Positions 8,129-42,789 of a stretch of 64,000 nt of DNA are shown piece after piece; position 1 is the stretch's first letter; each line of letters starts with the position of its first letter. Made by a program: the position numbers and the translations under genes. The stretch covers positions 3,288,501 through 3,352,500 of the forward strand of contig NC_135358.1 of assembly GCF_051622035.1 (NCBI RefSeq), given 5' to 3'. This DNA is from Arctopsyche grandis. Taxonomy: Eukaryota; Arthropoda; Insecta; Trichoptera; Hydropsychidae. The notes beneath the pieces are model-generated. The model worked only from the letters and a program-made list of their open reading frames with translations, searched no databases and was not told where the DNA came from.

Positions 8129-8143
8129 ACATACATATGTATA

Positions 8144-12660: not shown

Positions 12661-12721
12661 ACATAAATTATACTGTAAAGTACGAAAGTGCGATATATTT
12701 ATAATATTTTTATATATAACA

Positions 12722-12916: not shown

Positions 12917-13002
12917 AGAATCCGGCACCTTCACCCCCGAGGACTTCAAAAAAATCGAATGGGTCGTCTACGAACTAACGAACGAAGGTTACATACATAC
13001 AG

Positions 13003-15237: not shown

Positions 15238-15683
15238 AAGATATATTACCAGGAAGGCTTGACAAGAAGACCCCAATGTGCCTTCCTGGACAATTAATTA
15301 CAAATAATTCAGCATTTTATTATTACATAAATCACTGTATTTCCAGAAGTTGAAGAACATTAAATAACAATTAATTAATTAATTAATTACATAATTAATC
15401 CATTGAGACATCTATGGATTTAGATTTTGTATAAAATTTTTACAAATTATACACACAATAAATACAGAAGATTTGTGACAACAGGAAAGCTGATTTTTTT
15501 TCCAATTTTGAGGAACCGTTTAAACAATGATCAGATAAAATTGGCAAACTCTGATAAGAAACGATCGATTTGGAGTCACAATTACCCTCAAATCTAACCA
15601 GCAGTATGGCGGATCAAACCCACCGATCACTTGGTGCTAAACATACACGCTACCATTAAGACATACTGCTGGCTATACATACA
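15238..15683 (-). mobile_element. tRNA-headed SINE copy (minus strand)
   Basis: It begins on the plus strand with TACCAGGAAGGC, the inverted 3' hairpin, and ends with the inverted head GACATACTGCTGGCT. The body motif GATAAGAAACGATCG is present. Confidence 0.75.
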
Positions 15684-16657
15684 TATACATATTAACGCTT
15701 TTAATGTTTGATTAGATTTGACATTAACATAATGTCAAATTGTAAGGTCTGTTACATATGTACATATAAGACTACTTCTACCATTTGTAAATAATAAATT
15801 AAAACCCCTTTCAGCTTCTGAACTATGTATGTTTGAACTAATAAACGTGAATTAGGCGTATTGGACCCAAACAAATCGAAGTATCAACCTAAATAAAATC
15901 GTACAAGTACCGTATTTTTTTTTTGTTGGTGGAAACTTTTTGATCTCCGGAAATTGTTTAATAAAATTTGCGATTAAAAGTGGGATGAAAATACGTTGCG
16001 TCTGGTGAATTATGACCGGTCATAATTGCATGCGACCCGCCTTTCTGCCCTTCCGCGTTCCGGAAAAAATTTGTAATTACTTTTGGCTGTTTTGAGCAAC
16101 GGGTTTTAATAAATCACCAGGTACCGGCAGTCGGAGTCACTGGCTGTGCTCTCTGACCGCAAACAATTTTCAGTGTTAATTTGAAAAATTAAAAACTTGA
16201 CCCAAAGAACACCGGCTGTAAGCCCTCGAATGAGGAAACGACAGTCTAACTTGCCCTAATCCATTAATTCAAATACAGAAAAATATTTACTCGAAAGCCC
16301 CCAGTGTGGCTTGTTCCAATTTGTATCATATTTTCCGATTTCTAAGCCCGCTTTAAAGTCAAGGAATTTGACCCTTAAAGCTCTCAACATGAGGCTACCA
16401 CTCCCCCAACGAATACAGTCTTAGAGACCCTTTCGTCGGAGAACGAGACGGTTGTTCATGAATATCGCACAAGAACAATCGCACATCACTGTTCTAATAA
16501 AAAAAACCACACTGTACATAACCAAGTACAAAATAAACAACAACGCATGAACACGTAAAGCGCGCATGCGTTAGGAAATAATACCTGAAATGTGCCGTGC
16601 GAATGCACGCACACCTCAAGTAAACATACATGTACATATGTATGCATAAGCACGCAC

Positions 16658-16692
16658 ACACACACACAAACACACATACACACACAAACCAC
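16658..16692. repeat. (CA)n microsatellite
   Basis: CACACACA runs with a few CAAACACA interruptions. The long minus-strand Cys/Val frames across it are artefacts. Confidence 0.85.
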
Positions 16693-16725
16693 AAAATATT
16701 TTCCTATATTTATATTTATTCCATA

Positions 16726-17141
16726 CTAGCTGAACCCGGCATGCCTTGCAATTCCATAATAACGCGTTCAATTCCCGTTCCCGTTCCACAGACATTCAAT
16801 TTTATATATAGGTATGGATATATTTGTTGACTTGGGCCATCCGCTGTGTGTTTGTAGTACAGCCCTGAATGGTCAGTACATTCGTGTGCGAGGTAGGCGT
16901 GGCGCGATTTATGTCACACTTGCGGCGTGATGCGTTGAAGGCGGGATAGATTTACTTTCGTGTCATTAAAATCGTAATTACGAATATTATTATTAAGAGG
17001 TTTTTTCCCGTATTTTTTTAACAGTAATCTTCCCGGACATGCATACAACAAATCTTGAAAGTTTCATCGTAATCGGTTCAGTGGTTTAGGAGCCTATACG
17101 AGACACACACACAGACATTCAATTTTATATATGTATATAGA
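16726..17141 (-). mobile_element. Second Helitron-like family, copy 2
   Basis: The minus strand ends GGCATGCCGGGTTCAGCTAG before T and contains GGCTCCTAAACCACTGAACC. A stretch resembling the 5' end recurs at about 16790-16812, which suggests a deleted copy joined to a longer one. Confidence 0.6.
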
Positions 17142-19488
17142 TATAGAATTTTAGCATTCTAGAATTTTCTTCCATTATATTATGAAGTCCTACTCATATG
17201 TCTCATTCATTGGAGATTAAGAGAATTCAAAAACGGTTTCTAGGATATCTTTATATGAAATTGTAAGGTTATTATCCTTGGCTATATCCCAGTCCATGGT
17301 TTCCCAAACTATCTTCAGCGGAACACTAGTGTACCTGAATAGGTGTTTCGCGTAAATTTTGCTATTGTTTTATAGGCTGCAACACATTTAAACAACTTCT
17401 ACTTCAAAATGATAGGCGAGTGATGGTCAATCTCCACTGATGTTTATGAAGACAAGAATCTAAGCACATACAGGCTAAGAGTTTGAATAGACATTGGGTA
17501 CGGAAATAAATATTGTGGGAAAAGTATTACAATATAAGGTGAAAGTAAGACAAATTTTAATACATGAGATAATTCAATTTTGGATTTCATCAGTTGAATC
17601 TAATAACTTTGAATTTTTTTCCTGCCTCAGATGAATGACTTAAATTTTTAAGTACATACATATGTATATAGATGAAAAGCCAGTAGTTTTAAAGTAGATG
17701 AATTTTAAAGCCATTAAATGATTTCTGAGTGAGTTTGTCAGAAGAATACCCCAATATGGCAAAACAAGCTATTTTTGTCTTACTTCCGTTTTCAACGGTC
17801 AAAGTGCAGGAACAAACTCGACGCTACCCATATATAAGAATTGAACTCACCTTTATTGTGCCTGATATCAAGAAGATTTGTGATTCAAGGACTAAAAATC
17901 ATCAAAGTCGTTAGTAGCTTTATTTACTATATTTAAAAATATTTAGGAAATACGTAGATAATAAGTGTTTTAATAATATATTTTATTTTATATTTACCCA
18001 ACTTTAAAAATAAGCTAAGTGACTCGTTAAAATTTCCGGGTTTGTAAAGTCTTCCATTGCATAAAAAGTTTGGGAAACCCTGTCCTATTCCATTCCTATT
18101 AGGTCCTCAATTCCTATTATTCCTAATCCATTGAAGTCTTGTCGCGTTATGTTTTTTCAAAAGCACTTTTTTATGTTATTAAATAGGTTAGTACACTATC
18201 CTCTGGTTCTTAATGAATTTAAGTTTTATACACCTAGAAAGTTCAGGACCTGAGAAATATTTTATATATCTTTAGGAATATTCGGATATATCTGCTCAAC
18301 CGATATTGCTGGTAAAATTGACCTGTTTAATGTAAGCTGCGCTGAACTGGTTGAGTGGTTGTGGAGCAACGCCCGTGGTTGATTTTATCAATTATAAATG
18401 TCAAGCACGGTTGTTTTATATACCTTTATTTGTATTATGATTATTTGACTGGCCACAATGACGCGTTAGAGTACTCTGTAATGAAACTGTGGCTAATATG
18501 CTAAAAATAAAATAAATAAAATATAATGTGTAACGTATAATTGAATAAAAGCCTTGTAAAAAGTAAAAATACTGGACTGCAACTAAAACTCGACTACTAA
18601 ATTAATAATATAGACGTTCAATGATAACGTGTAAAATGTATTCATTGAAGTGTTGAAATTTGTATATAATGATTTGTATATTTGTATACAATAATTTTTA
18701 TATTTGTACAATTATTTGTATATAATATACATATGTATTTATAAAATTTACAATGTACATTGACATGCTTACAAATATCAATCATAAATTTTTAAAATTG
18801 CCGCAAGTAAATGCTAATACTGAGACATCTATTGAAAGAAATGTAAACTAATGTTTATTTTTATTAATTTTAATATTATAAAATAGATGTCTCTTTAATT
18901 CAAATAATTAATAACGCGTTTTTGTAATATGTACGCATTATAATAATTGGAAATATTTCAGGAGTACTTTCTAAATTTTTATTTTGTAATAAAATAAATT
19001 AAGTACCTATATGTATGTTTACATATACATATAACTACCACATTCGCGTTGATCCTTGTATTATATTATCCCAATATAACTATGAGATCATTCAATTATT
19101 TAACAAGTTTTGGTAACTGTGTATAGTGCATTCAACACGTTCAGTATGAAACTACGCCAATATTTATTTCATTTTGCCAAAAAATCTTTCTAATTATCAA
19201 TTTTCATTTCATTTCCGTAAATACATCGATGTTGAACTTGAATTTTAATCTAATTGGTACACGAAACAACATAAAAAAAATGTATTTTTGACCTATGACA
19301 CTTTAATCTAATTTTTGACATTATTTTCCCAATTCAGTCCACTTTTCTATGAACATCAGACTGATACTAGAATAAACCAGTATTTTTATTTCATATTCTC
19401 CTTATATTATAATTCCAGCAGTATACGAACGATCCTCAGATAGTTCGCTCGTTTTTATATTGATATTATAAATCTCGCAATATCAAAC
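17142..19488. other. Non-genic stretch upstream of protease gene A
   Basis: AT-rich, with one retroposon end (18300-18526). A TTATATTATA about 35 bases before TCAGATAG (near 19436) is a weak candidate promoter for the protease gene. Confidence 0.35.
18300..18526 (+). mobile_element. Retroposon 3' end with variant hairpin
   Basis: The segment ends in a hairpin (GCCACA...TGTGGC, 18452-18493) whose loop contains ACGCGTTAGA...CTGTAATG, then an AAATAAAATAAAT tail. The left boundary is uncertain. Confidence 0.5.
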
Positions 19489-22400
19489 ATGTCTTGGATT
19501 TGTAGTATATTTGTATTGATAACAATATTTCAATACAATCACGCCTGGAATAAATCCGATTTCCATATAGACTCGAAGGTATTTCATATTAATTTGTATA
19601 AATACTGATATTAGACTAAATAGAGATTTATCTGTCGATATGTAGGGTATAGCATAGCTTCTCTAACTTCGACAAATTTCGTAAACTATAGACTTATTTG
19701 CCAACAAATGCCCAGCCGTTCAAGTTCAATGCATTAAATTCACGCAACCAAATATAATATATGAATATAAACACATTTTTTCTGTTCAATAGCTTTCTAA
19801 GGAGTGTGGACATTCGAAATCTTTCTCTCCAGAGAACTATTTTGAACATTGGGGATTTTGGCCATGGCTTGGAATGGCATTTTACGACGGCTTCGGACGT
19901 GGAACAAAATGCAATGCCGTTCTCATACATCCTCAGGCTGTCATATCGAGTATAAATCAAACAAAACACATGCTATACATACATGATTAATTCAAATTCG
20001 TAATAATTTCCATACATATTTTTGTGCAGGTTTGCATTGTTTCAAGAAAATACCTGATATAATTTTAGAAGAACATCTCTTCGTAGCGTTTTCTCTTCCT
20101 GGATTACCATCGTTTCAAAACATATCAGTAATATGAAAAAAAATCAAACAAACACTGAGAATTCGATATATTAATTCGAAACTTGTTTTTAAACATTCCT
20201 CAGGTAACTCATTTAGATTTCCCTGGAACTAGGTACAATTCGGGATACGATTTGGCACTTTTGAGACTTTCAAGACCGGTCGTAGTCAGCGCTCAAGTTC
20301 AACCAATTTGCTTGTGGGAAGAAGATCACGACTATAGCACTCAATTGGCATCTCATATTGGAATGGTAACATCAAATTTTTTTGACCACATTTGATTGTT
20401 TTAGTCTCAAATGATTCAGTCGATTTTATTCAGATGGTGGGAGCAGATCTGAACAATTTATACGATTACGATAACTTCAACACACTGAGATCGTATCAAG
20501 CTCCAGTTCGAGTGATCAACGCAAAGAAATGTAGAGAAAAAGAGCCGAATTATTTCGACTCTCCTAATGAAAAGCCCTTGTGCTATTCTTACTACCGAGG
20601 TACTCGTTTGATTTTTTGATTTTTAAATGGTTTTTATTATTACTAAATTATGTTCACAATACATCTTATATCTATTTTAATAGCTACTGATCTACTGATC
20701 ATTTTCTATTTTACAATTTAATTTAATTTGGTTTGTAATCATAGTATTATATTATTCTAATGTTAATGTACAGCATAATAGGAAATATAGCTCAAAAACC
20801 TATTTACAATTCTTATAAATGCTCATAATACATCTAATACATAATATTAATTAAAGACTCTCTATAGTCGATGACCTAAAGCAGATTGTGTTTAGGTAAT
20901 CTGTGTGTTATACCTGAAGGGTATAGACATTTTGTTGTAATCACCGAGACTCTTCACAAGTGTGTTAGCATGGTTATTAGTGATTCTGTCATAGAATCTA
21001 CTGGTTAGTTTGTTAGTAATATCTGTAACAAACGGAATATTATTTATGGCATGCAGTTTTTTCAAGTTTTTGTTTGAAATAGAAGAGCTCTTACTATGTC
21101 TAAATTATTTATAATATAAGCCTTAAGAAAAAAATTCCAGTTCCTGTTACATGTCACGGATTTGGCTCGATGTTGATGTTTCCAAGATTATCGGAGACTG
21201 GAGATATTGTTTGGTATTTGAGAAGCATCGTTACTTTGAGGAAATGGCTTTGCGATGATAATTCTTATACTTCTTCATTCGATGTCGCTGACAGAAGACC
21301 ATGGATCGAATCACATTTTAGGGTAAGTTTCATAATTTCATAGATCATTATTTATATTTCTTAACCCTTTGAATGCAGACCAAAGCCGATCGCCGTTTTG
21401 CCAACAAGTCTATGAGCCTGAAATACGCCGATAGGCGTTGTTTTTTAAATATGTAAAAATAAATATGTAGGTAGCATTGAAAATAAAGTAAAAAATACAT
21501 TGAACATGGGTCGTGTAATCCGTGTCATTCATTTTCAACGTTTATAAAGACTGTTTTACACCGGAATTTCTGAATGTATAACCATGTTACGAATTTAAAT
21601 GGTTCCACGAGAATAAATTGATATATAGAACAGATTCCTATTTTATCATTTATATATGAAGTACATATATCCAGTTACAGAGATTTCGTTGATTAACCTT
21701 TTCAATGCTGACCAACACCGATTGGCGTTTTGCCAACAAGTCCATGGTCCTGAAAAACACCGATAGGCGTTGTCTTTTGAGCATGTACAAAGTAAACAAG
21801 AATATTACCCACTAAGCCTTTCCAGGTAGCATTGAAAAAAATACATTGAACATAGGTCTTGTAATCCGTGTCATTCATTTGTCAACGTTTATAAAAACTG
21901 GTTTACACCGGAATTACTGAATTTATAACTATAGTAGCTTTTCCCGATGAAAATCCCTAGCTGCTGAGTATTTTGGATTGTGGCTTGGCATTTAGATTGT
22001 GATCATTACATTTTAATAACAATGTAGAAGATGGAACTAGTTTTTGAAAAATACATTCATTAATAGACTTTTTTTGTTTATTTTATATTGTTGCAAGATA
22101 TATTAGAGAGTCTAAACACACCTTTACAAAACTCGAAATCCTCGACGGTAGTTATCTAGGGTTTGTTTGGATTGGCTACAATGTTTGTACCTGCTTTCTA
22201 TTGGATTTCTAAATAATTCTAGTTGGAAATTTTGGCGAAATTCTCAGCGTGGCTGGCTTTCAACAGAAAAGACGTCAGCACTCAAAGGGTTAAGCATCGA
22301 AATGAAAATATTGTATTATTAATATTTTATTTTAGACTTCAAAGGAGAAGAGTTGCGGTCGACAAGTAGCAACACATACCCCATTGGTTACACTTGGACA

Positions 22401-24540
22401 ACAAACACACAGAGGAGATTGGCCATGGCATGCTGCCTTATTCTTAGATTCTTTGACAAATAAATCCAAATCGTATAGATGTGGAGGAAGTTTAATATCT
22501 CCGTTATATGTATTGACAGGTGAATTTTCTTTTAAGAAAACAACAAAAATGTATAAACGTGTATAGAAATTAATTTCAATTCTTCATTATTAGCCGGACA
22601 TTGCGTCATGCTTGATTCGAAAATACTAGACGGAAGATTGTCGGCGAAATTGGGCAAATTCAGTTTGAATTCTAATGAACCAGATTCTTTAGACATACGG
22701 GTACACCTATTTCGTTACTTATTATACATACAATACATATGTGTATTATTATTATTTACTGAATTTAGGTATCTGAAGTCATTCTGCACGAATTCTACGA
22801 TCAAGATACACTTCGTAACGATATTGCACTGTTAAAGCTGTCGTCAAATGTCACCTACAATCAATACATTCAACCAGTTTGTTTGTGGCACAGTGATAAT
22901 CTCGACAAAAAGAATATTTTCAATCAAATCGGAAGGGTTTGTATATCTGAAATTCTTAAACAATATATACGTATAAAACCTAATACATTTTAATAAGCTC
23001 AAGACATAATACCTTCTAGGATCTCAAATTATTTCATTGTTTTTATTCACTTTCATATAATTCTTCATTCTAAGCTTTGATTTACAAACTATTTTCCAAT
23101 ATTTACTGAAAATCTCTACAGTTTTAATATTGATATAGAACTACAATACATATATTCAAAAATACGTTTCTGTATATTATTGAGCCCATGAGCTGACGTC
23201 GATTGAAAAGAATTTTTCTGAGTATATCTGTAGTGCTGCTTGTCAGACCTGGATATTTGTGACTCCAGGTCAATCATTTCGTATCAGAGATTGCCAATTT
23301 TCTCTGATCTCATTGTTGAAACGGTTCCTGATTAAAAATTGGCTAAAAATCTTCCTATCTACTATGTCACCACTATTTGATTAATGTACAATAACATTTA
23401 TGTACAATTCATATATGTCTCGTTAATTTGGGAGTATTCAGTGTCTTGTAATTCAGCGACTTGTATATGTGTAATAAAAATGCTGTATTGTTTGTAATTG
23501 GCCGGAAATGCGCATTGGGGATTACCTGTAAGGACTTCCTGGTATAAAATGTAATAAAAAATAAATATAAACACCAATAGAAAAATTAATTCATTAAATA
23601 AATGTTCAATAGTTGGCGGTAAATGAAAAAAACTATTGACCTAGAGGAAACATTGGTAGCATTGTAGTATATGTATATAGAAGTTATTTTCTTTTTTTTT
23701 ATATTCGTACGTTTTGATGGCACTGTTTTATCTGTGACTTACATACATATGTATATAGGTATATCTAATATTATATATTTGTATATATGTATAGGCACAT
23801 ATATGATGCCACTGACTGTGCCCATTATAGAACGCACTAAAATTTGTTACTATAAAACATACATATATTTACTTTAAATGCTGTACAATATATGTATGTA
23901 TGTCAAAATGTAACAACAAAAACTTAAAAGCCAAGGAATTGAAATACAATTCAATTTTTATTTAGTTTAATTTTTTTTATAAAAATGTTAGTCAATTCAA
24001 ATGCAATGCTTCATTTTGGCCCACCATGCTCTGCAAATTCTGCAATTCCTGGTAGTAGTATTAAAATTTTAACTTTCACTTCATATATGTAGGTTCCAGG
24101 TTGGGGTCTGAATGAAAAGAATGAATATCCAAATACCTTATTCGTAGCTGCGATACCCATCGTAGAAGATATCTATTGTTACCAAAGTCACGCAACGTTC
24201 TACGACTCGTTCTTAACCAACTCTACTTTCTGCGCAGGAAACCCCAGAGGAAACGGTAGATATATATATATGAAATTTAATCATTAGATAACTAAGCCTT
24301 TTTAACGTTAATTATTATTTCTTTTCAGGTACTGCTGTTTGCAACGGTGACAGTGGAGGAGGACTGATATTGCCTGTTGAGCAAAATGATCAAGATGTAA
24401 CTTGGTACGTGAGAGGAATCGTATCTGTCACAGTAAGGAGAGAAGGTGGAAACTTATGCGATACCAATTACTATGCCATATATACTGATGTAGCCAAATA
24501 TTTGGACTGGATCACGTTCCAAATGTCATTGGATTTGTGA
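19489..24540 (+). CDS. Tandem-domain serine protease A: dead N-terminal and intact C-terminal trypsin-fold domains, 562 aa
   Basis: Exons: 19489-19578, 19793-19949, 20030-20127, 20204-20365, 20434-20599, 21141-21322, 22336-22519, 22594-22700, 22769-22936, 24093-24255, 24329-24540. All junctions are GT-AG and the frame stays open for 562 residues. Exon 1 is a signal peptide ([20 protein letters not shown]). The first trypsin-fold domain (exons 2-6) has [14 protein letters not shown], keeps His85 (SLHC) and Asp131 (YDLALLRL), but the active-site serine motif is replaced by [10 protein letters not shown]. The second domain (exons 7-11) begins [17 protein letters not shown] and keeps His349 (AGHC), Asp400 (NDIALL) and Ser501 (CNGDSGGG). 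The CLW and CNGDSGGGL motifs recall gastrulation-defective and modular serine proteases. It is probably an extracellular cascade or immune protease. The residue six before the catalytic Ser is Ala495, so trypsin-like specificity is unlikely. The substrate is unknown. Confidence 0.9.
20608..21042 (-). mobile_element. Jockey-like LINE, 5'-truncated 3' end (copy 1)
   Basis: Read on the minus strand it begins in the last coding stretch of a Jockey-type ORF2 ([19 protein letters not shown], then a stop), followed by about 300 bases of 3' UTR and a tail of ATTTAAAAATCAAAAA type. It lies in intron 5 of protease gene A, antisense to it. Its 5' truncation point is the same as in the copy at 38447. Confidence 0.8.
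21361..22293. mobile_element. piggyBac-like non-autonomous element in intron 6 of protease gene A
   Basis: TTAA at both ends (21361-21364, 22290-22293) with inverted CCCTTTGAATGC / GCACTCAAAGGG termini. The left portion, from ACCAAAGCCGATCGCCG to ACACCGGAATTTCTGAA, is repeated at 21693-21930, preceded by another TTAA. No transposase frame remains. Confidence 0.75.
23185..23568 (+). mobile_element. SINE copy in intron 9 of protease gene A
   Basis: The body (CTGCTTGTCAGACCTGG, GAAACGGTTCC, CTACTATGTCACCACTA) and the 3' hairpin with GCGCATTGGGG...CTGTAAGG are present, followed by an AATAAAAAATAAA tail. The tRNA-like head is degraded. Confidence 0.75.
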
Positions 24541-24692
24541 AAAGAAGTTAAATGAATTCTCTATTGAAATTTATGTTTCCTCAACCGACAAAACTGTGAT
24601 AAAACATGTCATAATTGCATATTTTCAATTTTTTACTTTGACAAATTTCAGTTCGAAGCTTATTTTAACAAATTGATTTGTCTAGTTATACA

Positions 24693-24821
<129 letters not shown>

Positions 24822-24970
24822 GTTCATATGTATACATGTAGAAACATATTTTCAAAACTTTCATATATGTATATACATAATACATAATAGTTATATGATG
24901 TTCTTGGACTGATATAGTAATGAAAATATTTGTTACATACATACATACATACATGTAAATACTAGAATCT

Positions 24971-25165
24971 TGATTTTTTGATTTTTAAATGCTTTTTATT
25001 ATTACGAAATTATGTTCACAATACATCTTATCTATTTTAATAGCTACTGATCTACTGATCATTTTCTATTTTACAATTTTAATTTAATTTTGTTAGTATT
25101 ATATTATTCTAATGTTAATGTATAGCATAATAGGAAAAAGAGTTCAAAAACCTATTTACAATTAT
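24971..25165 (-). mobile_element. Jockey-like LINE 3' UTR fragment (copy 2) with 11-bp TSD
   Basis: The minus-strand 3' UTR of the same family as copy 1, about 195 bases, is flanked by the exact duplication TACTAGAATCT at 24960-24970 and 25166-25176. The duplication defines a genuine 5'-truncated target-primed insertion, just downstream of protease gene A. Confidence 0.85.
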
Positions 25166-25369
25166 TACTAGAATCTAATATAGTAGATAGATATACAAAT
25201 TTATATTATACTATATTTCTTTTAGGCTAAATAATTATAGTATAAATACTTCTGATATTAAATTTTATTATTCTGATACAAATAAATTTATTTAAATAAT
25301 CATATTATTTTTATTCAGATTTTAGCAAGCACTTTAAATACCAAAAGACCAATTTTAAATACCAAAAAC

Positions 25370-25562
25370 ATTTTTTTCTGTTTGACTTAATTCACAAATT
25401 GCTATTAATTTTTTTACTTCGCATATTTTTTATTTATTTATTTACTGGACATATCCAGAATATTGTAAAAGCAAAATAAACGTATTACAAGCCACCAGTA
25501 TTTCTAAATATTTTTGAACGCAAACATTATATTTAATTTTTAGCGAGATATTTTTCGAAATG
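25370..25562 (+). repeat. Unclassified dispersed repeat, copy 1
   Basis: Shares TTAATTCACAAATTGCTATT...GACATATCCAGAAT...CGAAATGAAGA with 40215-40380 (same strand) and 34665-34870 (opposite strand). No termini or coding content recognised. Confidence 0.55.
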
Positions 25563-25565
25563 AAG

Positions 25566-25909
25566 ATATTAACAGTGGGAAAAAATCCCAAGTGAAAATA
25601 CTTACTTTTGACTTTTGATTTGAACTGGATGACTACTTAGATAGATTTGAAAGCTGAAAAGTACTACAAATGGAAGATAAAATACCCGACTATAGATTCC
25701 AATATTCATTTTGAACAGGAAATTGACAGATTTTGAGACATCGACCGAACAACACCAAGATATAGAAAAATCGCGTGATTTAAAAAACACATATATCTCT
25801 GAATCTCGAGCCAATCAACATTTTTTATTACCAGATTCGTGTTTACTGGGCATAGATCTATAAGAAAAGTTATATCTCGTCTCTGAATCATTTTTCGTGT
25901 CGAACAGTG
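25566..25909. mobile_element. TIR element, CACTGTTCGACA family, left-truncated copy
   Basis: From ATTAACAGTGGGAAAAAATCC to CGTGTCGAACAGTG it matches 49219-49590 closely, and TA follows the right end. The left third of the element is absent. Confidence 0.7.
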
Positions 25910-25916
25910 TAACCAA

Positions 25917-26012
25917 CACATCTCTCCAGCAGCTAATTTAGCCAGGACTTGAACCCACGACCACTCTACTAGTATACGATAGCTCTACCAGTGAGCAACG
26001 CTGTGGCTTAAA
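25917..26012 (-). mobile_element. SINE head, second tRNA-like type
   Basis: The minus strand reads GCCACAGCGTTGCTCACTGG, GGTAGAGC and GGGTTCAAGTCC, matching the head at 10878. It directly follows an inverted-repeat element. Confidence 0.55.
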
Positions 26013-26127
26013 TAATTAAATCAGTATATGTAAAATATACAAATGTATTAATATATGAATATATCCAAATGTGAAAACTAACTAAATATCGATTTTATTA
26101 ATATACAAATTATAATATTATATTATA

Positions 26128-26334
26128 CAGGTTTTTCATTCCAAATTTACCCTTTTAAATTTCAAATTGATCGTTTTTCATTTCAAATTGACCCGTTTTC
26201 ATTTCAAATTGACCCTTTTTCATTTCAAATTAAACCTTTTTCGATGTCAATTTCAACCCTATTTCGAAGGCTTAATTTTGAATGAAGAAAGTCAATTTGA
26301 AATTAAAAAGGGTCAGTTTGGAATGAAAAACCTA
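26128..26334. mobile_element. Tc1/mariner-like MITE with internal tandem units
   Basis: Inverted ends YAGGTTTTTCATTCCAAA about 40 bases long, flanked by TA on both sides. The left half contains about four tandem units of TTTTTCATTTCAAATTGACC type (26170-26240). It lies between the two protease genes. Confidence 0.75.
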
Positions 26335-26626
26335 TATAAATACTATCTAAACTGTTACTTTATCAAATTCCAATATTTGATTACACCCTGAACCACTGTG
26401 TAATATATTTACATGTAATATTTCATAAAATAGGTAAACAAAAAGATTTCGATTACAAACCGACTGGTTTTTGAGTTCGACTGGTCCATCATAAATACAT
26501 TATAATTTGTTAATTAGTCTTCAACACATTCGCAATGACTGAACAAGTGTCATTGCTATAACTTTATACCTATTTAGAATATTTAAATATTTTTAAGTAC
26601 ATACATAGGTATGCCTTAATTTCAAC

Positions 26627-29600
26627 ATGACTCGCGTTTTAAGTCATTTTGCAGCGGTTTATTTTATCGTTTGCACATTCGGCGTCTTTTCAACATTGAT
26701 GGGATCAAATTTTTACATCAATTCAAAGGTTAGTGGAAAATTTATTTTACACCAATACAGAGGAGATTTGACGGTTGAATATATTTCTGACAGCTTCCAA
26801 AACTATGCGGTCACATGAACCATTACGTACCAGAGCAGAATTTTGTACAGTGGGGTAGCTGGCCCTGGTTGGGTATTTTATCTTATGATACTACCCAACA
26901 AAGTCATTGTGTTTGCATCCTCATACATCCTCAAGTGGCACTTACAGGTAAATTAAAAAAAATAGTAAATACATAAGGGGTGCGATTTAAATGTACATTG
27001 CGAAAAATACTTTGTATCTTAAAAAAATGTTTACGCATTAAAAATTTGCATCACTTTCGGTGAATTAAACAATCTCGCATTGTGCATTGAATAAAATATT
27101 TTGGCATTATAAAGCGACCATTGAAAAATATGAAACGATCATTCGAAAAAATAGATTTAGCATTAGAATAGATACATAAAGTGGCAACGTTGCAGTCTTC
27201 CGCTATTGACAAGTGTCGACTGTCAAAAGTGTTTACTTTTGTTTACGTATTACGTATGAATATGAATGATGATGTCAGGTCATAGAGTTGAAGCCAAGGT
27301 CGTGGGTATCGAAGGTCACAAGCCGAAGAGTAATAAAAAACACCTATATATAAAAATCCTCTTCTCTCTCTTCTATAATTTGTACATAAAATTATTATTT
27401 TGAATAAAAATATCAATAATTTTATTTTACTACCGCCATCTATGTTTAAAACTAATAAACAAACGGTGAATAAACGTCAACGACTATCTCGCCGGGCAGA
27501 TTTAAAACGCGTCTTACACGATATTTTTGCACCATCGTAATGGCGGAGGATCCATTTACTTATATTGATGACCAAAATGAGCAATATGGGAAAGTATGAA
27601 AACGATCGGATAAGAGGCGAACTTTTTCCTTAATTGTAATCGTAAGTGAAACGTAAAGGAGGTATGTAAAAAAGAAGGAATCCAGTAGAGAGAAGCGTTG
27701 GTCATTGTCGGTTCGTATTTTGGTATTCGTGACGTTGCCGAAACAGTGAATATGTGATTTTAATACACATTTCATCCGCTTTTTAAGTAGCAGATATTTT
27801 TTCAATGATCAAAGCAAAGTTTCTAATGCAATCTGTATCCGTCAGATGCAAACAATTTTTTCGTCATGTACAGAAACTTTTTTTAATGTACAAAAATTTT
27901 TTTAAATGCAAATTTATTTTATAAAATGGACGTTTAAGTTGTTCTCATACAATAAATACCAACTTAAAAAATATTGCTAACAATCAATTTGGCGATAAGG
28001 AATTAGACATAGACTGGTTTGCCGTTAATTACTATATCACTACACTGATTGAACTAATTGTTTTAAGCTTCTATTTGCACCCAAAATGACATTTCAAACT
28101 TCAACAACGACTTATCAGTATCGTTCTCTTTGCCCGGTTTGACGACATACCAAAATATACCTGTAAGTATTCAACCATGTTGGAATTTAAACTTGGGTAT
28201 TGGATGGAGAGATTTATTTAGTTTAGTTTGTCGTAGCGCTTCAGCAACGTCAAATTTCGTAGACAGAGACTTTATTAGTGAATTATCAGCCAACTAATCT
28301 CTTCTTCAATACCTATCATTAAATACTAACAACAATATGAAGTAAAATTGATATAAAGTATCTCTGATGCAACCAAGACGCATCTTAAAAATACAGAATA
28401 CAAACTCAATATCATTGAAAATCAACTGTTTCAGGTAACTCACATGCATTTATCTACCAATCAAATAACTGACGGTTCAAGTATAGCCTTGTTGAGGTTA
28501 CAAAGAACGGTTATAATTAGCCCGTCAGTTCAACCGATATGTCTTTGGGAAGAAAGCCAGAACTATACGGCCCAACTCGATTTGCAAATTGGAATGGTTG
28601 GCAATTTATAAACCAACACATTTGTATCGATATTGAATATTAAAATAATACAATCAATCGCGTTTCAGATGATAGGAACGGACCTAACAAATATTGGTGC
28701 TACGAACAATTTGAGAATATTACAATCTCCAGTGCGTGTCATTGGAGAGACTCAATGCAGATCTTCCTATGATGAAATTTTAGACAATAGAATGTGTTTC
28801 ACTTATATCAAAGGTGATTTTGATCTGTTTTAGCATTGTTTTATTATTTTATTGAATCTGTGTTATTAAATTCGCCTTTTAAGAGACCCAAAACTGTCAC
28901 TACATCGGTTCGATGATGATGTTTCCGAGGTTGGCCGACAACGGTGATCAAGTGTGGTATCTCAGAGGGATAATATCACAAAGGATATGGGGATGTTCGA
29001 ATGGAAAATATAGTCCCAGTCTAGATTTGGCCGGCATGTATAAATGGATCTCATCACATTTCAAAGTGTGCCCAATTTTTCAGTATCGATATTTTGAATT
29101 TAGCTAAGTCAGTTCAATTTGTTTCTTTATATTGTATATAATATGTTTCAGGCTTCGGTCGAAAGCAGTTGTGGTCGAAGGGTTGTTTCTTTCGCCCCGT
29201 TGGTGACTTTGGGTCAACAGGTCGAACGAGGAGACTTCCCCTGGCATATTGCACTGTATTTGTATTCGATGAATAAATTGTCAATATCTTACCATTGTGG
29301 CGGAACTTTGATGTCAAATTCGATAGTTATCACTGGTAATTTAAAAAACATTTACTATACACAAAATAATTTTTTCCAATAAAAAAATGTATGAATGCCT
29401 GTCAGTTGTATAATAAAAATGTGAATGATAGCGATGCTTCAAGCTAAGGTTGGTTTCTTAGCAACCTATTAATTAAAAGTGTCCAAGAACGTAGTGATTT
29501 GTCCACAAATTTATCTGCCATAACAGTTTCTCGGATACCATGTAGCAATTTGTTGGAAGACTTTTTCCAACGAGTATTAAATGTCTGCTATAACATGGTT

Positions 29601-32600
29601 AATTATTTTATTTTTATTTTTTATATTGTATATTTGGAAGTCTTATATTACGGTTTAAATTTGGAATAGTCTTGTATTGCGGTTAAGTTTGGAATAGTAT
29701 TCCCAACAATGTAGTGATTTCGAAACACCTTATTATTTTTAAAAACAAGCTTGCTGTCTTTCTTCTTTTCTTATATCTTCATTTCTTTCTATATTTTCGT
29801 TTTCTTTTAATCATTTTTTTACCTCTTTTTCTTGTTCACTTTTTCCTCTCTTATTTTTATTTTTATTTTATTATTGTATTATGTTGTTTTTTTTTCTCAT
29901 TTAATTTTATATATGTATGCATATAAGTCAAACCCCTTGGGTCTATTACAAATACATACATCATATATATAATAACGCTATTCCGTGTGTCTGTATGTCT
30001 GTGTGTGATAACGCTCGCCGTACTATAATAGTCATTTTGATTTGACATATGTATGTATTTACGTCACAATTAAAGCACTGCCAAAAAAACGCACGAATAT
30101 AATACGAACATAATAATAGATCAACAAAAAAAGTCGATATATACTGTTTGCTACCAATGTTTTCTCTAGGGCAATAAGTCTCTGAGCATTTAGCACCATC
30201 TATTGACAATGTATTAAATTAATTAAATAATTAATTATTTTTTCTATTTGAGTTTTATATTGTTTATAAGTAGGTAGGTAGGTATTTTTTACCGTGTGTT
30301 TTTCATATTAAATAATTAAATATGAATATTAAATTAAATATATTTAAAAGGTATTATGTCTGTTTGTCTGTCTCGTTTAGGCTCCTAAACCACTCAAACG
30401 ATTACGATGGAACTTTCAGGATTTGTAGTATGCGTGTCCGGGAAGCGTACTGTAAAAAAACCGCCCAAAAACGGGAACGAAAACGGGAAAAACGGGAATG
30501 AGTGGCATTGCAACGCAATAATTTCAAATGTTTTCACGTCGCGACCTGCGTTTCTTGGGTAAAATAAAAAAACAATTAAATAATTTCGAATGTGTTCGCT
30601 GCCTGCATTTTTCCGACAAATGGAAACGGGAACGATAACGGGAACGGGAACGCAACGGGAACGGGAATTGCATGCGTCATTGTGTTAATTGCATGCCGGG
30701 TTCAGCTAGTGTTTAATAAAATATATAAATAAAAAATGTCAAAATATTAAGTTGCACTTTAGGAATTTAATAAATAAATTCGAGAGATTTGTCTCTCGTA
30801 GGTTATCTATGTACGTATGTAACTCCGAAGTAATTTTGATTTTTGATTTTTAAATGCTTTTTATTATTACGAAATTATGTTCACAATACATCTTATATCT
30901 ATTTTAATAGCTACTGATCTACTGGTCATTTTCTATTTTACAATTTAATTTAATTTGGTTAGTAATCATAGTATTATATTATTCTAATGTTAATCTACAG
31001 CATAATAGGAAAAAGAGCCCAAAAACCTATTTACAACAAAGTAATGTCGTTGCTAGAAACCCTACGAAAGACTGGCCTTAAAACTTTGCATCTATTGGCA
31101 CTTTAATAAAGCAAGTAATTGATACAAAAGAAAGGAAGTATGAATGTGGGTATGAACATAGATATAATGCGGGTATTGAGGAAGACTTAAGAGACTGTCA
31201 TCATGGTAAAGAAATCATTAAAGTAATTTTTCAGCTGCCCATTGTGTCACAGCTCACAACGCGCCAATGGCACCCAACAGATTTGCCATAGCTTTGGGCA
31301 AATTCGATCTATATTCCAAGGAGCCAGGAGCTATAATAATAAAAGTAATAAAAACGATGCAGTACTTGGTATCATATAGCAAAATACTCATTCACTGATT
31401 TGATTAGGTTTCCCAAGTGATCGTGCATGAAAACTACGGTTATACATCCCTCCAGAACGACATAGCACTCCTGCTTTTGGAGACGAAAGTTAATTACAAC
31501 GAATACATTCAACCTGTTTGTATGTGGGAAGAAGCTAATACTAACAAACAGAGCGTATTCAACGTTGTAGGAAAGGTAAAATTTTTGCTGTAATCTCTGG
31601 AATGTTATCACTTTTTATTACTTGCGCTTAATTACAGGTACCCGGTTGGGGCAAGAATGAAAGGGAAGAACTTTCCCAATATTTATACGCGGCTTCAGTA
31701 CCGATTGTCGATGATTTGATCTGTTTTCAAAGTCATGAAGCATTTTACAGCAAATACCTGACAAATAAGACGATATGTGCGGGATATCCGAGAGGAAATG
31801 GTGATTACATTCATTCATATGATTTACAATCCAAATTTCAGATTATTTTACTAATTTAATGTATGTATATTGTGCTGCATTTGACATTTCATCTCTAATT
31901 TTAGAATCTGTGGATTATTAATGTTCTTTTTTCAATTGTAAGTGTATGGATTTTGTATCAACCTACACTTGCACGCGATGCATGTTTGCGTTTCAATTTA
32001 AATTGACTTCAATATATTGATTTAAATTTTTGATTACTATACTTTACAAACTGGATTTTTAAGTATTAAAAACACTAAAAAATTTAAATAATTTCAATTT
32101 TTATACAGTGAAAATCGCCCAAAACTACAGCTCACTTCGAAAAAGTGTCAAAACGTTAATACATTTTTTGAATTTTTACTTTTTTTTCTTTATTCTGATA
32201 AAAGTATCGTCTCAAAAATATGTATATAAGGCAATTATTTGTCACTTTAGATGTAAACTTTTACAGTTCTATACATAGTAGAAATCGATAATATATAAAA
32301 CTAAAAGCTGTTTAAAAATATGGGATGAGATTAGCACCAACAATTCTCTAGGTATAATAGAAGATCTGTCCTACTTAATCTTAATTTTTTTGATTTTTAA
32401 ATGCTTTTTATTATTACTAAATTATTTTCACATAGATCTTATATCTATTTTAATAGCTACTGACCTACTGATCATTTTCTATTTTACAATTTTAATTTAT
32501 TTTTGTTAGTAATCATAGTATTATATTATTCTAATGTTAATATGTACAGCGTAATAGGAAAAAGAGCTCAAAAACCTATTTACAATTCTTATCCTCATAA

Positions 32601-33047
32601 TACATCTAATACATAATATTAATAAATTTTAATTTAAAATCTTTCACAATGTCTCAAACTCATCGTAATGCCTTCAAAATAGAACAAGAAGCACTGTTTC
32701 AATATTATAGATATACGTTTATAGTAAAAAACCGACCATAGGTATATTTTATCATGTAGCATCTACTAATAACCGCTTTTACCTGCAATCACTAAAAGCA
32801 CCATTTTTATCATATCTCGTTTTCAGGTACGAACGTTTGCAACGGCGACAGTGGCGGAGGACTAGTTATTCCAATAACCCAATCAGATCAGAAAGTTTCT
32901 TGGTATTTGCGAGGCATAGTATCCGTAGCGATAGCAAAAGCAAACGAGAAGTCCTGCGATCCAAACTATTACGCCATATACACAGACGTACCCCAATACA
33001 TCAAATGGATATCGAACAACGTCAAAAAATTGTCAGAAGCATGTTAA
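26627..33047 (+). CDS. Tandem-domain serine protease B, paralogue of A, 561 aa
   Basis: Exons: 26627-26728, 26794-26947, 28068-28162, 28435-28596, 28669-28813, 28884-29065, 29152-29335, 31235-31344, 31408-31575, 31638-31800, 32827-33047. Exon phases match gene A throughout, and exons 4, 6, 7, 9 and 10 have exactly the same lengths. Exon 1 encodes a signal peptide (MTRVLSHFAAVYFIVCTFGV). The first trypsin-fold domain has lost the whole triad: the His position reads TASIC, the Asp position reads GSSIALLRL, and the Ser region reads NCHYIGSMMMFP. The second domain is intact, with His344 (AAHC), Asp396 (NDIALL) and Ser497 (CNGDSGGGL). The residue six before Ser497 is Asn491, again not the trypsin Asp. 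This is a secreted pseudoprotease-protease fusion arising by tandem duplication with gene A. Introns 7 and 10 have received Helitron and Jockey fragments. Its biological substrate cannot be read from the sequence. Confidence 0.9.
27563..27690. repeat. Dispersed repeat segment in intron 2 of protease gene B
   Basis: Inverted match to 330-455: the GTAAATGAC...AAAGTATGAAAACGATCGGAT part reads in reverse there (ATCCGATCGTTTTCATACTTTG). A weaker match occurs at 3660-3710. Its class is unknown, but it is associated with the Helitron-like long repeat. Confidence 0.5.
30335..30709 (+). mobile_element. Second Helitron-like family, copy 3
   Basis: Plus-strand copy in intron 7 of protease gene B. It starts near GTCTGTTTGTCTGTCTCG, contains GGCTCCTAAACCACTCAAAC and GGGAACG arrays, and ends CATGCCGGGTTCAGCTAG before T. 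A similar 5'-type segment (AATAACGCTATTCCGTGTG) lies at about 29970. Confidence 0.65.
30835..31038 (-). mobile_element. Jockey-like LINE 3' UTR fragment (copy 3)
   Basis: This is the same 3' UTR as the other copies, flanked by AAGTAAT at 30828-30834 and 31039-31045. It lies in intron 7 of protease gene B, antisense. Its truncation point is nearly the same as that of copy 2. Confidence 0.8.
32385..32622 (-). mobile_element. Jockey-like LINE 3' UTR fragment (copy 4)
   Basis: Same family as copies 1-3, slightly longer than copies 2 and 3, in intron 10 of protease gene B and antisense to it. A short AT-rich duplication (TTAATTT) may flank it, but it is too simple to be certain. Confidence 0.75.
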
Positions 33048-33350
33048 ATAGAAAACTTTCAGCCGTAAAAAACCTTAGGACTTAGGTGATCAATATCTCA
33101 ATTTGAGAGTAAATATAATTAAATGAAACGTTCGAGAATTTCCATTCGCGGGGTGTAATGAAGTGGAGCGGTTTAAGCATGCGCCGTTGCGTTTATCGGA
33201 AACAGTTGTCTCGTGGTTTCACAGCAAACTGGTTCAAGCTGTGACATGTGTCATGGTTAAATTATGATCTTGTCGTGATCCGAAGTTTCGTTGACATCGT
33301 CTGTGCCAATTCGACTCAAATTTGCCAAAATTTCAGCGCACAGCCTCGAC

Positions 33351-33545
33351 ATGACGGAAGACATACGAATGTTTTGGGAGTTCGTCAAAAAGTACGTACT
33401 TTTAAAGCCCCGAGTTGTTTATTACATTTCATCAAACATATCTGAAATAGTTTTTAATTTGTGCGTTTGTTTATTTAAAATGATTGTAGAACCTAATGTT
33501 CATGTGTTTAATTTTATGTGTCAATTTAATTTGCAACTTAAATAA
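33351..33545 (+). CDS. Weak candidate: short ORF or first exon, MTEDIRMFWEFVKKY
   Basis: An acceptor-like TTTCAG at about 33334 precedes ATGACGGAAGAC and the peptide MTEDIRMFWEFVKKYVLLKP. A donor-like AAA|GTACGT follows fourteen codons in. If unspliced, the frame runs to a TAA that overlaps an AATAAA at 33540-33545, so it could also be a small terminal exon. Local composition is less AT-rich than its flanks. I recognise no family and see no partner exons downstream before the gene at 38018. Confidence 0.25.
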   Translation: MTEDIRMFWEFVKKYVLLKPRVVYYISSNISEIVFNLCVCLFKMIVEPNVHVFNFMCQFNLQLK

Positions 33546-34112
33546 AACGTGTCGATCTACGGATGTGTTATATAAAATAATGTATTGAAATTGGGGCGAT
33601 TTGTTTCCACTGAATTATTTCGCCCATAATATTAACTAGTCAGGGTTGAACAATTTCTGTATACCACATATAATTCTATCGGGATGTATGACGATTTTAA
33701 TTTAATAAAATATTATATATTCTTACTTACTTCGACTATTTGATTTGAATTGTATGAGTTATTTCAGTGTGTATGATACAATACATTGAATTATTTGCAA
33801 ATAAGGTTTTTTTTATGGATGAAATTAAATTTATAGTCTTTACAAAATACTTACATTACTATACGTATAAATAACTATATACGTATAGTAATTCAAAATC
33901 AGTCTACATATACATACATACATATTATATGATATTAAGTACATATTACATTGCCTTATTATGATGATTGACCAATAAGATTTTGAATTATTAAAAAATG
34001 CATTTTTGAACAAAATTCTGCGTACATAAAGCAATGCTGATAGTAAAATTAATTTACTATTTATTATTATATTTAAAAAAAAAGCTCTACTTAAATGTAT
34101 ACATACATATTT

Positions 34113-34345
34113 AGCCAATAGCATAGCTCGGTGGTTGCATTAATGTCTATCACGTAGGCCTCGATTGAAAAGAATTTATTCCAAATATTGTCGCTAGTGC
34201 TGCTGGTCAGACTTGAATATTTGTGACTCCAATTTGATCGTTTCCTATCAGAGTTTGTCAATTAATCTGATTTCATTGTTGAAATACGGGTCTTCATCAG
34301 ATTGGCAAAATCTATCCTACCCACTATGTCACCACTATTTGAATT
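34113..34345 (+). mobile_element. SINE copy lacking its 3' hairpin
   Basis: Head remnants (ATAGCTCGGTGGTTG) and body (TGCTGGTCAGACTTG, CTATCAGAGTTTG, CCACTATGTCACCACTATTTG) are present. The copy stops before the hairpin and tail. Confidence 0.65.
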
Positions 34346-34664
34346 TGATTTAAAAATTTGAAAAATGTCACCCAGGGACAACGCAAAAACGGCATCTTGG
34401 GAAAATATTAAATTGGGTCCATCGACTAATATATTTATTTTCCCAAGTATAAATAATTAAAAATATATATATTATACATATATAAATTTAAAAACCTAGC
34501 ACAGCAGAATACGCCACGTAAAATTAACGATCTATTGATACAAAAAAAATCGACATAAATATATGTACATATATAAAAATTTCCAAATCATGTATTTTAT
34601 TCTTTACTCGTATGTATGTACATATATACATATGTACATATGACCTGTTATATGTATTTGAAAG

Positions 34665-34870
34665 TGGCATAAGTCCAATTTTCTTCATTTCGAAAAATAT
34701 TTCGCAAAATATTAAATATAATATTTTGAGTTTAACAATATTTAAAAATACTGATGGCTTGTAATACATTTATTCTGAGATTTTGGACATATCGTATTAA
34801 CAGAAGTGATAACAATTTGTGAATTAAGTCAAACAGAAATTGTGTTTTTGGACCTATAATTTTTAATACT
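34665..34870 (-). repeat. Unclassified dispersed repeat, copy 2
   Basis: Inverted match to the repeat at 25370, including CTTCATTTCGAAAAATATTTCG and ACAATTTGTGAATTAA in inverse order. Confidence 0.55.
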
Positions 34871-36351
34871 TACGATTATTAATTTATAGATATCTTCAAA
34901 TAATATCTAACAGCATAATATATCTTCTTTTTATAAAAAAATAATAATAATTCAATCATTCGACATATACTAAATATGCGAAATCAATTTGAACCCAAAG
35001 TAGGAGATAAAATGATCTTTTCGATGTGTATGTGAATTCAAATCTCGAATTTTTATCATTCATTCAGGAACTTAATAATTAGCAGCAAAAATAATAACTG
35101 AAAAAAATTTGTTTAAATCATAAATTAAATACATATGGTACATTTGTAAATGCACTTTGAACGGAAGCCTAAATAGAAATGGATGATTTGAAAATTAAAT
35201 ATTATTAAGCAAACGTGAGAAATTCACAATTGTTTTGTAACCAACTATGTATGTACTTTCACACAACTCATTTATATGAATCATCTTAATTAATTTCACT
35301 TCTGACTCATTCTATGTATGTTGTAATTTAACTAAAATCTTCATCAAAAAATGGCAACTAGAGGCAACCCTATTCCCTCACCTGTATATTTTGTACAGAT
35401 CGTCAGGTTGTATTCGCATGTCAATAATTAATGGAAAAATTCCCTTTGAACCATTTTCAATCGATATACAACGTCATTGTATTATAGGTTACATGTGCGC
35501 AGTCGTTTAAAACCATTTTCAAGAATATATTAATATTAATCAACCTTCAAAAGACGAGACAATTCACATACATGTTGTAGAACAAACACTATACTCAAAC
35601 TTATGATATACAAATGTATTCATATTTTAATTAAACACGACATACATATGTAATTACTATAAAATACCGCATTATACATACATAGTTTATCATCCCTATC
35701 GTAACTATTGATCGAAATAAAATGAAAGGCAATTACAACCATATTACATATCGATTTTTCGCACACAATAGAAGTTCGTGATGCTTTTACTAAATTGATG
35801 ATATAGAAATAATGAATCGCTTTTAATGGTCGATTTCAGTATGAAACCTAGAATTTCTTAATTACTTACATACATATATATAAAGAATGGGTACATATGT
35901 TCATTGAAACGTTGCAAAAAATCGGTAAGGACTCTATGGACAGTTATGCAAATTATTTTAAGTGAAAAATTCCTCGGTTCAATACAATACATTTTTTTTT
36001 TCGGTACAGGTAGACGAATATCTTCGGCGTAATATTATCAAGTTTAACTAGAAAAGTTAAGTGAACTTTCTTAGAACGTTTATAGCTAAAAGCATTGACG
36101 CCAATATTCGACAACAATCTAGATTAGTTATCTGAGGCAAATCCCTTCCTGTGCATTATTTTTATCTATGAAAAATGCGTTTCACAGACAAGAATGAAAT
36201 TAGTCATACTTACATTAAATAATACTACATATCAAACACACTATCGCGTTCTATAAGAACTTGGACTTAATGAAAGCACAATGAAGATCTATTATTTAGC
36301 CAAATTGAATTATTGGTGCAGTTTTTTTCTTATTTTTATGTCGTTATCATA

Positions 36352-36760
36352 AGATCACACTGCTAACTTTTTCTTCCACTATTTTTTTCGACCCCTTAAA
36401 CATGTGTGATCTTCACGAAAAAAATCAAGTGTAATTCTTGTATTAACGTGATGAAATTAAAAAAAAATGATTAAATTTTATAAACCGGAAGTGGGATTTT
36501 TTCCTTTTAGAAAGGTCAAAAATGTTGTCGCCACTACTCTGTCCACACCCCTAAACGTATCAATCTGAAACATTATATTTGTATTTTTTATATACTAACC
36601 TAGAGCTGATAAGGTTTTGGTCAGAATTCGTTAACCGGAAGAACATAGTATTTTTTTTTAAAACAATATTTCATTATTTTATTTTGACCTTTTAAATTAT
36701 TTTCATCTTCTTGATATTTTTTGTGTATTATACTGATAGTGGTTTTAAGTAATAATATAC
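36352..36760 (-). repeat. Inverted partner of the ACTTCCGGTT repeat
   Basis: Contains AACCGGAAGTGGGATTTTTTCC (about 36485), GTCCACACCCCTAAACGTATC and TTAACCGGAAG (about 36633), matching 45430-45830 on the other strand. Confidence 0.6.
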
Positions 36761-37986
36761 TCGTATGTAACTTTTTTTACGTTATATATTTTTATTTGGG
36801 CAATACAAGCTATAAGTTTTAATTTTTATTTCAAATCACATATCAATTCGCTTTTGAAACTACCCATTGATATTTCAATATATAAAACACTAGTAAAAAC
36901 TAAAGCCAAAGTAAGTAAAATAGAAAGACAGTCAATTAGTGGTGTACAATTGTAGGTCAGAGCGAAAAATACGAATTTTGGATGTACATCGATAAACCTA
37001 GTGGAAAAATTGCGTCGTATCAAGGAGACGTTAAATAAAAAATTTCATCTATTTTAAGCAATGTCCTATGCATAAAACCAATCGTTTAATCTGTAGGAAA
37101 ATTTTGATAAAGTAAACTTTTTTTCATATATCTTCCTTTTATAGAATAGTTTTGATTTTTTCACAATTAAAAAACATAAATGCATAAATTGGATCGATTA
37201 TGATAAATTTTTATAGATTAATGGGAGTTCAAAATCGCCGTTTTATGTATAAGAAAATTCCAAAGAAAGCGAGCCACGCTCAAAACGCACATTTGTATGG
37301 CGGAAGCATTCTTTTCAGAAAATCCTTTTTTCATGTTCCCGCCATTATTTTGAAAATATAAGTTGTTGAGAGCTGCCTTAGCAATATACCTTTAACTTGA
37401 ATACAAAAAATACCGGAAATATTTACGAATTTTATGAAATATAAGGAGGCCAAAACTACCACTTTTGACGTACATACATATATAATGACATTTTGGCTTG
37501 CTTCATCATTTTTATATTTATATCCTCTGATTACGTGATATATTTTAAACGCCTCTGTGCATTAAATTTTGCGATATGTTCTGTTACAAAATACGTATTA
37601 AAAAAAACTCAAAAGTAATACGTCTTAATATAATAATAAGTCATACACTAGAAATATCTATGAGATTCACCATGCACACATTATGTTTATTACTAATCCA
37701 AACATTCCACGCTCATTGCGTCAAAGAGTAAGTCATAAAGATTAAAGATTTATTGTGATTCTTTCAACAAAATGTAAATTACTCATATGGCTATAATAAA
37801 ATGTGCATTGAGACTTAAATGTGTACGAAAAATCTAAACGAAACTGTGCGATTCAAAAATTTCGCAAATTTTTATACCTACTCGACCACTTTTCGGAACT
37901 TTCTACTTCAATGTATAATACTATGTACTAATACATAGATACATATATGAATGGTAGTGCCCTAAGTAAAATTTCTAGCCCAAAGG

Positions 37987-38024
37987 TATATAAGGTCCCA
38001 TTTTCGGGTAGTCCAGGTCATTTA
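37987..38024 (+). promoter_or_regulatory. Core promoter of the small secreted protein gene (TATA and initiator)
   Basis: A TATATAAG box at 37987-37994 is followed 33 bases later by TCATTT (A at 38020), which fits the arthropod initiator TCAKTY. The presumed first exon, 38018-38086, follows and ends in a GTAAGT donor. The spacing is right for a focused TATA promoter. The exact start site is inferred. Confidence 0.65.
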
Positions 38025-38083
38025 TTGTCAGACTTTCGTATCACCTCTGTCTGTAGTGTCCTGAGCTGTGAAAGTCCTTCGAA

Positions 38084-40079: not shown

Positions 40080-40095
40080 ATTTATAACCAAAACC

Positions 40096-42775: not shown

Positions 42776-42789
42776 TATTTTTATTTTAC

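Follow-up and report, generated by a model that had tools for sequence, protein, structure and literature searches.

The stretch of DNA analysed here (hereafter, the window: 64,000 nucleotides of the Arctopsyche grandis contig NC_135358.1, positions 3,288,501 to 3,352,500 of the forward strand) carries two tandem genes, A and B, each predicted to code for a secreted chain composed of two trypsin-fold domains of the S1A family, a first domain (D1) that has lost its catalytic motif and a second one (D2) with the catalytic residues in place. An earlier reading of the letters alone, made by a model without database searches (the sequence-only reading), had described the pair as a dead trypsin-fold domain followed by an intact one, and spliced gene models, Pfam matches and mapping of the triad residues confirm this description. 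Our preferred interpretation, to which we give about an even chance, is that each product is the zymogen of a secreted serine protease in which a serine-protease homologue (SPH) makes up the N-terminal regulatory part, D1 being tethered through a disulfide to a chymoelastase-like D2 and regulating it.

Gene A (coding sequence 19489-24540, + strand) and gene B (26627-33047, +) are composed of 11 exons each, separated by GT-AG introns, and their spliced translations give 562 and 561 residues, respectively, with no internal stops, in agreement with the 11 exons and about 560 residues that had been proposed. The two proteins are identical at 269 of 557 aligned columns (48%, E = 0.0). In gene A, exon 1 (19489-19578) codes for a putative signal peptide, exons 2-6 (19793-19949, 20030-20127, 20204-20365, 20434-20599 and 21141-21322; D1 as a whole, 19793-21322) for the dead domain, and exons 7-11 (22336-22519, 22594-22700, 22769-22936, 24093-24255 and 24329-24540; as a whole, 22336-24540) for a linker and the intact D2. 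Gene B follows the same plan, with the putative signal peptide in exon 1 (26627-26728), D1 in exons 2-6 (26794-26947, 28068-28162, 28435-28596, 28669-28813 and 28884-29065; as a whole, 26794-29065) and linker plus D2 in exons 7-11 (29152-29335, 31235-31344, 31408-31575, 31638-31800 and 32827-33047; as a whole, 29152-33047), all of them on the + strand. Of the signal peptide claimed by the sequence-only reading, what stands is a hydrophobic N-terminus in both genes (Kyte-Doolittle 12-residue maximum of 2.64 at residue 3 in A and of 2.28 at residue 10 in B). All four domains match Pfam Trypsin (PF00089) far beyond chance (A-D1, 6e-10; A-D2, 1.3e-45; B-D1, 1.2e-13; B-D2, 1.4e-45); the sub-cut-off matches found beside it, to DUF1986 (A-D2, 0.0014; B-D2, 0.0099; A-D1, 0.082) and to a zinc finger (A-D1, 0.18), were not used. 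With at least two S1A domains per reading unit, A and B fall within the broad definition of polyserases or polypeptidases. In gene B nothing but intron 6, of only 86 bases (29066-29151, +), separates the D1 exons from those of D2; the counterpart intron in gene A has 1013 bases, and the linker (WIxSHF[RK]xSxExSCGR) is conserved between the two genes. Because of this short intron and of the conserved linker, the DNA supports the presence of D1 and D2 in one chain in both genes, so that the fusion of a dead and an active domain in one reading unit, put forward earlier, holds for both paralogues at the level of the gene models.

By sequence, D1 is an S1A serine-protease homologue in both genes, that is, a trypsin fold with at least one of H57, D102 and S195 replaced. 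A-D1 retains His85 and Asp131, and the alignment places CHGFGSM at its GDSGG segment, while in B-D1 all three triad positions are replaced (His by I in TASIC, Asp by S in GSSIALL, and CHYIGSM in place of the GDSGG segment). In both genes D1 has one residue fewer than D2 in the loop between Cys191 and the next shared Pro, and both BLAST and MAFFT place the gap at position 194. Counted with this gap, Ser195 corresponds to Phe in A-D1 and to Ile in B-D1; counted without it, these same residues fall on Asp194 and Ser195 becomes Gly. Under either count the GDSG motif is absent, as judged from the aligned segments, from both D1s. A serine is found one place past the site in both of them (Ser234 in A and Ser229 in B), and it is predicted to be non-catalytic from its context, which has no GDSG surroundings. 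Neither D1 has a recognisable activation motif, and a three-residue gap falls where an IVGG-type start would be. Read from these alignments, the loss is stepwise, the GDSGG and activation motifs being lost in both genes and His57 and Asp102 in B only; the graded loss of the triad described earlier is therefore maintained, with the refinement that both genes carry the losses at the serine loop and at the activation motif. Parsimony from these two sequences suggests that these shared losses (GDSGG and the IVGG-type start) most simply predate the A/B duplication.

D2 is predicted to be an active-type S1A protease, with H57, D102, S195 and D194 in place (triad residues His349, Asp400 and Ser501 in A, and His344, Asp396 and Ser497 in B; Asp194 present). 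Its putative activation cut is PL↓VTLG in both genes (Leu302↓Val303 in A and Leu297↓Val298 in B), a start that was counted back from the aligned Gly19, protein C aligning to D2 from Gly19 onward. The S1 pocket positions 189, 216 and 226 were counted from Cys191, Ser214 and Cys220 and read A/T/A in A-D2 and N/A/A in B-D2, position 216 being less sure because the 214-220 loop is longer than that of chymotrypsin. Asp189 is absent in both genes and D2 is therefore, as far as its pocket residues indicate, not trypsin-like; its P1 preference is likely for a small-to-medium hydrophobic residue. Leu stands at P1 of the putative activation site, which is the criterion applied to ModSP and HP14 (here, on the sequence only), and the absence of Asp189 together with the PL↓VTLG site would suit a Leu-preferring, ModSP-like enzyme, whose self-activation would be possible in principle. 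The equivalents of Cys1 and Cys122 in A are residues 292 and 420. The active serine of D2 is coded by AGT, and position 225 is Tyr, in both genes (exon 11: 24329-24540 in A and 32827-33047 in B), a combination that marks the clotting- and complement-type members of the S1A family.

D1 and D2 are each coded by a five-exon cassette with matching intron positions and phases. Within the domains, three of the four introns lie at the same alignment columns in D1 and D2 (94, 132 and 188) and the fourth, which adjoins a gap, is two columns apart (244 in D1, 246 in D2); their phases are 1, 0, 0, 1 in all four domains, and the intron by which each domain is entered is in phase 0, 4 to 6 residues ahead of the first cysteine. 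Eight alignment columns are cysteine in the four domains (positions 1, 42, 58, 122, 168, 182, 191 and 220 in the usual numbering), which by homology would form four disulfide pairs that D1 has kept. In phmmer comparisons, A-D1 matches B-D1 with 251 bits, A-D2 with 71, B-D2 with 42.5 and its best PDB chain with 41, so a close relation between D1 and D2 is supported by the scores for A only. D1 and D2 thus resemble two copies of a single five-exon cassette, whose likely, though unproven, origin is an internal duplication or the fusion of tandem genes.

Selection on both domains was analysed by pairwise codon-model fits of A versus B only (226 codons in D1 and 272 in D2). Neutral evolution, with a ratio of nonsynonymous to synonymous rates (omega) of 1, is rejected in both (twice the log-likelihood difference, 2dL, of 88.5 in D1 and 96.8 in D2), so that, in the comparison of omega between the domains proposed by the sequence-only reading, the dead domain proves to be under purifying selection across the A/B pair. 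The profile likelihood of D1 drops by 1.0 at an omega of 0.10 and by 3.0 at 0.15, which places the upper bound between these two values. Point values scatter because the synonymous divergence (dS) is saturated: separate fits give 0.045 for D1 and 0.146 for D2, and a joint fit with shared time gives 0.061 and 0.047, respectively, two omegas being better than one (2dL = 4.1). D1 is under clear constraint, somewhat weaker than that of D2 by identity and by the joint fit. Along D1, 10 of 15 residues are identical in the windows of 15 residues at 100-114, 140-154, 148-162, 228-242 and 236-250 (these last two lie just past the former serine), while identity is low across the former serine site itself (220-234, 5/15) and around His57 (3/15), and is lowest at 204-218 (1/15).

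Chains that combine active and dead S1A domains are already known in insects, and what is said here about published systems extends as far as the accessible portions of the sources. Seven polypeptidases are known from Tenebrio molitor, of which four have an active domain followed by a dead one, one has two dead domains, one has an active domain and then two dead ones, and the seventh is Nudel; six of them contain Sushi modules and L↓I activation sites, and related tandem proteins are cited in Tribolium and Anopheles (PMC11172050). A and B resemble pSerP448, pSerP900, pSerP333, pSerP382, pSerPH608 and pSerP614 in having at least two S1A domains per secreted chain and a Leu at the predicted activation site, and, as in five of these six, active and dead domains stand together. 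However, the active domain, where present, comes first in the Tenebrio proteins, whereas in A and B the dead domain is first and the active one second; the former have 837-1347 residues and Sushi modules in front, whereas the latter have about 560 residues and no Sushi match (Pfam, E up to 1); and the active-domain pocket is S, S or A, and G or A in Tenebrio, compared with A/T/A and N/A/A here (PMC11172050). Compared also with the Tenebrio-type L↓I site before each domain, there is L↓V before D2 and no recognisable motif before D1. Human polyserase-2 (an active first domain plus two dead ones) and polyserase-3 likewise carry tandem S1A domains in one chain, although the active domain comes first in polyserase-2, and the active-serine codons are stated to be TCN, in contrast to the AGT of D2 (PMC1435904). 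Another insect protein in which an active S1A domain shares the chain with a dead one is Nudel, to which the portions seen of Ostrinia and Plutella surveys give two domains of protease type (no such chain was seen in those of a honey bee survey); it is, however, very long, with many LDL-receptor modules and the active domain first. An Aedes protein described as polyserase 2-like appears among the listed components of an immune complex (PMC5310873). Drosophila ModSP is chymoelastase-like, prefers Leu at P1 and autoactivates (PMC10732536), and A and B share with ModSP and with Manduca HP14 the Leu before the predicted new N-terminus of D2; the regulatory part of those two proteins, however, is made of LDLA repeats plus CCP/Sushi and Wonton, not of an SPH domain. 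Clip-domain SPHs also pair a dead trypsin fold with an active protease, but they carry a clip domain and are separate proteins, whereas A and B have both parts in one chain. Neither protein has a match to clip, LDLA, CCP/Wonton or GD N-terminal domains (Pfam, E up to 1), and membership of the clip-SPH, Gd, ModSP and Nudel groups was rejected on the absence of their defining modules at this threshold; with no clip domain matched, the likeness to clip-domain SPHs drawn by the sequence-only reading is not supported in that form. Its description of the system as under-described has to be narrowed, as tandem active and dead chains of insects are in print (PMC11172050), while the dead-first, two-domain form without extra modules was not found in the accessible parts of the literature searched, a partial search from which absence from print is not claimed; the sole textual match to such an order (PMC2996933) is probably the term 'SPH-specific'. 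What would be new here, by comparison with those sources, is the dead-first order, the two domains and the lack of extra modules. Searches for relatives in virus and prokaryote contig collections gave 26 and 22 pattern matches, respectively, and none was confirmed, as expected in such collections.

In the preferred interpretation, a protease cassette would have been duplicated and the two copies joined into a D1-D2 unit, in which D1 would have lost its serine motif before the unit was duplicated into A and B, B losing later His and Asp too. D2, a chymoelastase-like enzyme, would become active once cleaved at Leu↓Val, possibly by its own action. A Cys1-Cys122-type disulfide (residues 292 and 420 in A) would keep D1 attached to it after this cleavage, and D1, itself without catalysis, would provide a docking surface that controls the place, time or target of D2 action. 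D1 would thus take the role that clip, GD or LDL-receptor/CCP modules have in other insect cascade proteases; an immune setting for A and B is a guess. Several points weigh against this interpretation. The inactivity predicted for A-D1 follows from motif loss, while its His and Asp are kept and a serine adjoins the site. A/B identity is lower in D1 than in D2 (46% vs 54%), and the absolute values of omega, obtained from two sequences with saturated dS, are unreliable. B-D1 scores 49 bits against A-D2 and 35 against its own D2, and the match of A-D1 to B-D2 (42.5 bits) is no better than those to PDB chains, so an internal duplication does not follow from the bit scores by themselves; the introns of S1A genes, moreover, are partly ancient. 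Were exon 6 read through into intron 6, translation of either gene would add a short tail and then meet a stop, yielding a D1-only product, and alternative D1-only transcripts may arise in this way. Finally, the regulatory role, the self-activation and the disulfide are all drawn from homology.

The same read-through would also be expected if each locus held two separate genes (a lone SPH and a lone protease) that were wrongly joined, an explanation that we consider very improbable and that includes, as a variant, a chimera of active-then-dead type in which the D2 of gene A is joined to the D1 of gene B. Each domain is a complete five-exon cassette that could once have been a gene, there is room for a separate spliced first exon in the 1013-base intron 6 of gene A, and in gene B an in-frame ATG precedes exon 7 by three codons; but no hydrophobic leader follows this ATG in the unspliced in-frame extension, the 86-base intron leaves little room for another exon, the frame directly upstream of exon 7 of gene A closes at an adjoining stop, and the linker is conserved. 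The chimera is unlikely, since A-D2 ends in a stop, the sole phase-0 GT among those of 24440-24540 (24490) lies inside that domain, and no further protease sequence was found elsewhere in the window (tblastn with the four domains as queries, E up to 1). Still less probable, to the point of being hardly tenable, is that D1 is decaying toward a pseudogene part, as its stepwise loss of the triad and its identity below that of D2 might suggest: an omega of 1 is strongly rejected, and D1 contains no stop or frameshift and keeps its splice sites intact at a saturated synonymous divergence, so pseudogene decay was rejected over the whole of the A/B divergence.

Other explanations accept the D1-D2 chain and assign D1 a different role. 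D1 might neither bind nor regulate anything of its own, and act simply as a spacer or as a prodomain that aids folding, or persist as a remnant whose fold secretion requires; this is rather unlikely in our opinion, and it fits with the cysteines being the best kept features of D1 and with its slightly weaker constraint. A weak argument against it is the segment just past the former serine, which belongs to the most conserved parts of D1 (228-242 and 236-250, 10/15) in contrast to the 3/15 of the His57 segment, and this pattern may reflect core packing. The main functional rival is that A and B are gut enzymes for digestion and adaptation to inhibitors, D1 being a decoy for dietary protease inhibitors that spares D2. 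Digestive enzymes do not, to our knowledge, usually have Leu at the activation site, and D2, having no Asp189, differs from trypsin-like enzymes. In favour of such a decoy, one of the Helicoverpa armigera genes for 'polytrypsins' is strongly induced by soybean inhibitors (another is repressed), but the Helicoverpa proteins have two complete trypsin domains (PMC9693090), whereas D1 lacks a normal active site, and the activation sites given in the table of elastase-like enzymes of Tenebrio are R or H, not Leu (PMC11172050); all in all, this explanation seems doubtful. Returning to the regulatory interpretation, a more specific form of it, in which D1 is a built-in cofactor (an SPH turned into the prodomain of an initiator-type, self-activating chymoelastase, tethered to the enzyme by a disulfide after cleavage and guiding it to a target or trigger, with the D1s of A and B diverged toward sensing or binding different partners), is possible but, as a whole, unlikely.

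Serine-protease homologues of insects are known mainly as separate cofactors, and a loose partner makes their mode of action hard to study. If the dead-first fusion is real in the protein, both partner and stoichiometry would be fixed, allowing a direct test of the effect of an SPH on a protease, and the architecture of A and B would represent a route by which a spare copy of a catalytic domain becomes a regulatory domain.

The window is AT-rich (31.8% G+C). No Pfam family was found at E up to 0.001 in 33050-48048 (all six frames, with stops as X), a method that, as a control, returned Trypsin in two of the three + frames of 19000-33047 (8.3e-26 and 7e-13). Ten single open reading frames were also compared with Pfam (E up to 0.01), and nine of them had no match (four in 33-48 kb and five in 48-64 kb); the one with matches, located in 1-19000, has 996 residues (5127-8117, +) and contains an endonuclease (PF03372, E=3.7e-12) and a reverse transcriptase (PF00078, E=1.6e-33), so it is possibly an intact non-LTR (long terminal repeat) retrotransposon. 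Several repeats lie in or near the protease genes. A dispersed repeat is present at 20608-20809, 24970-25161, 30835-31036 and 32382-32574 (one copy in a gene A intron, two in gene B introns and one intergenic), two copies being 96% alike over 197 bases and the others matching in shorter pieces. A 99-base element appears twice in intron 6 of gene A (21361-21459 and 21693-21791, 83% identical), and a 69-base repeat (84% identical) is shared by intron 9 of gene A (23231-23299) and the region downstream of gene B (34195-34263). Just downstream of gene A, at about 24697-24818, there is a long run of AT dinucleotides.

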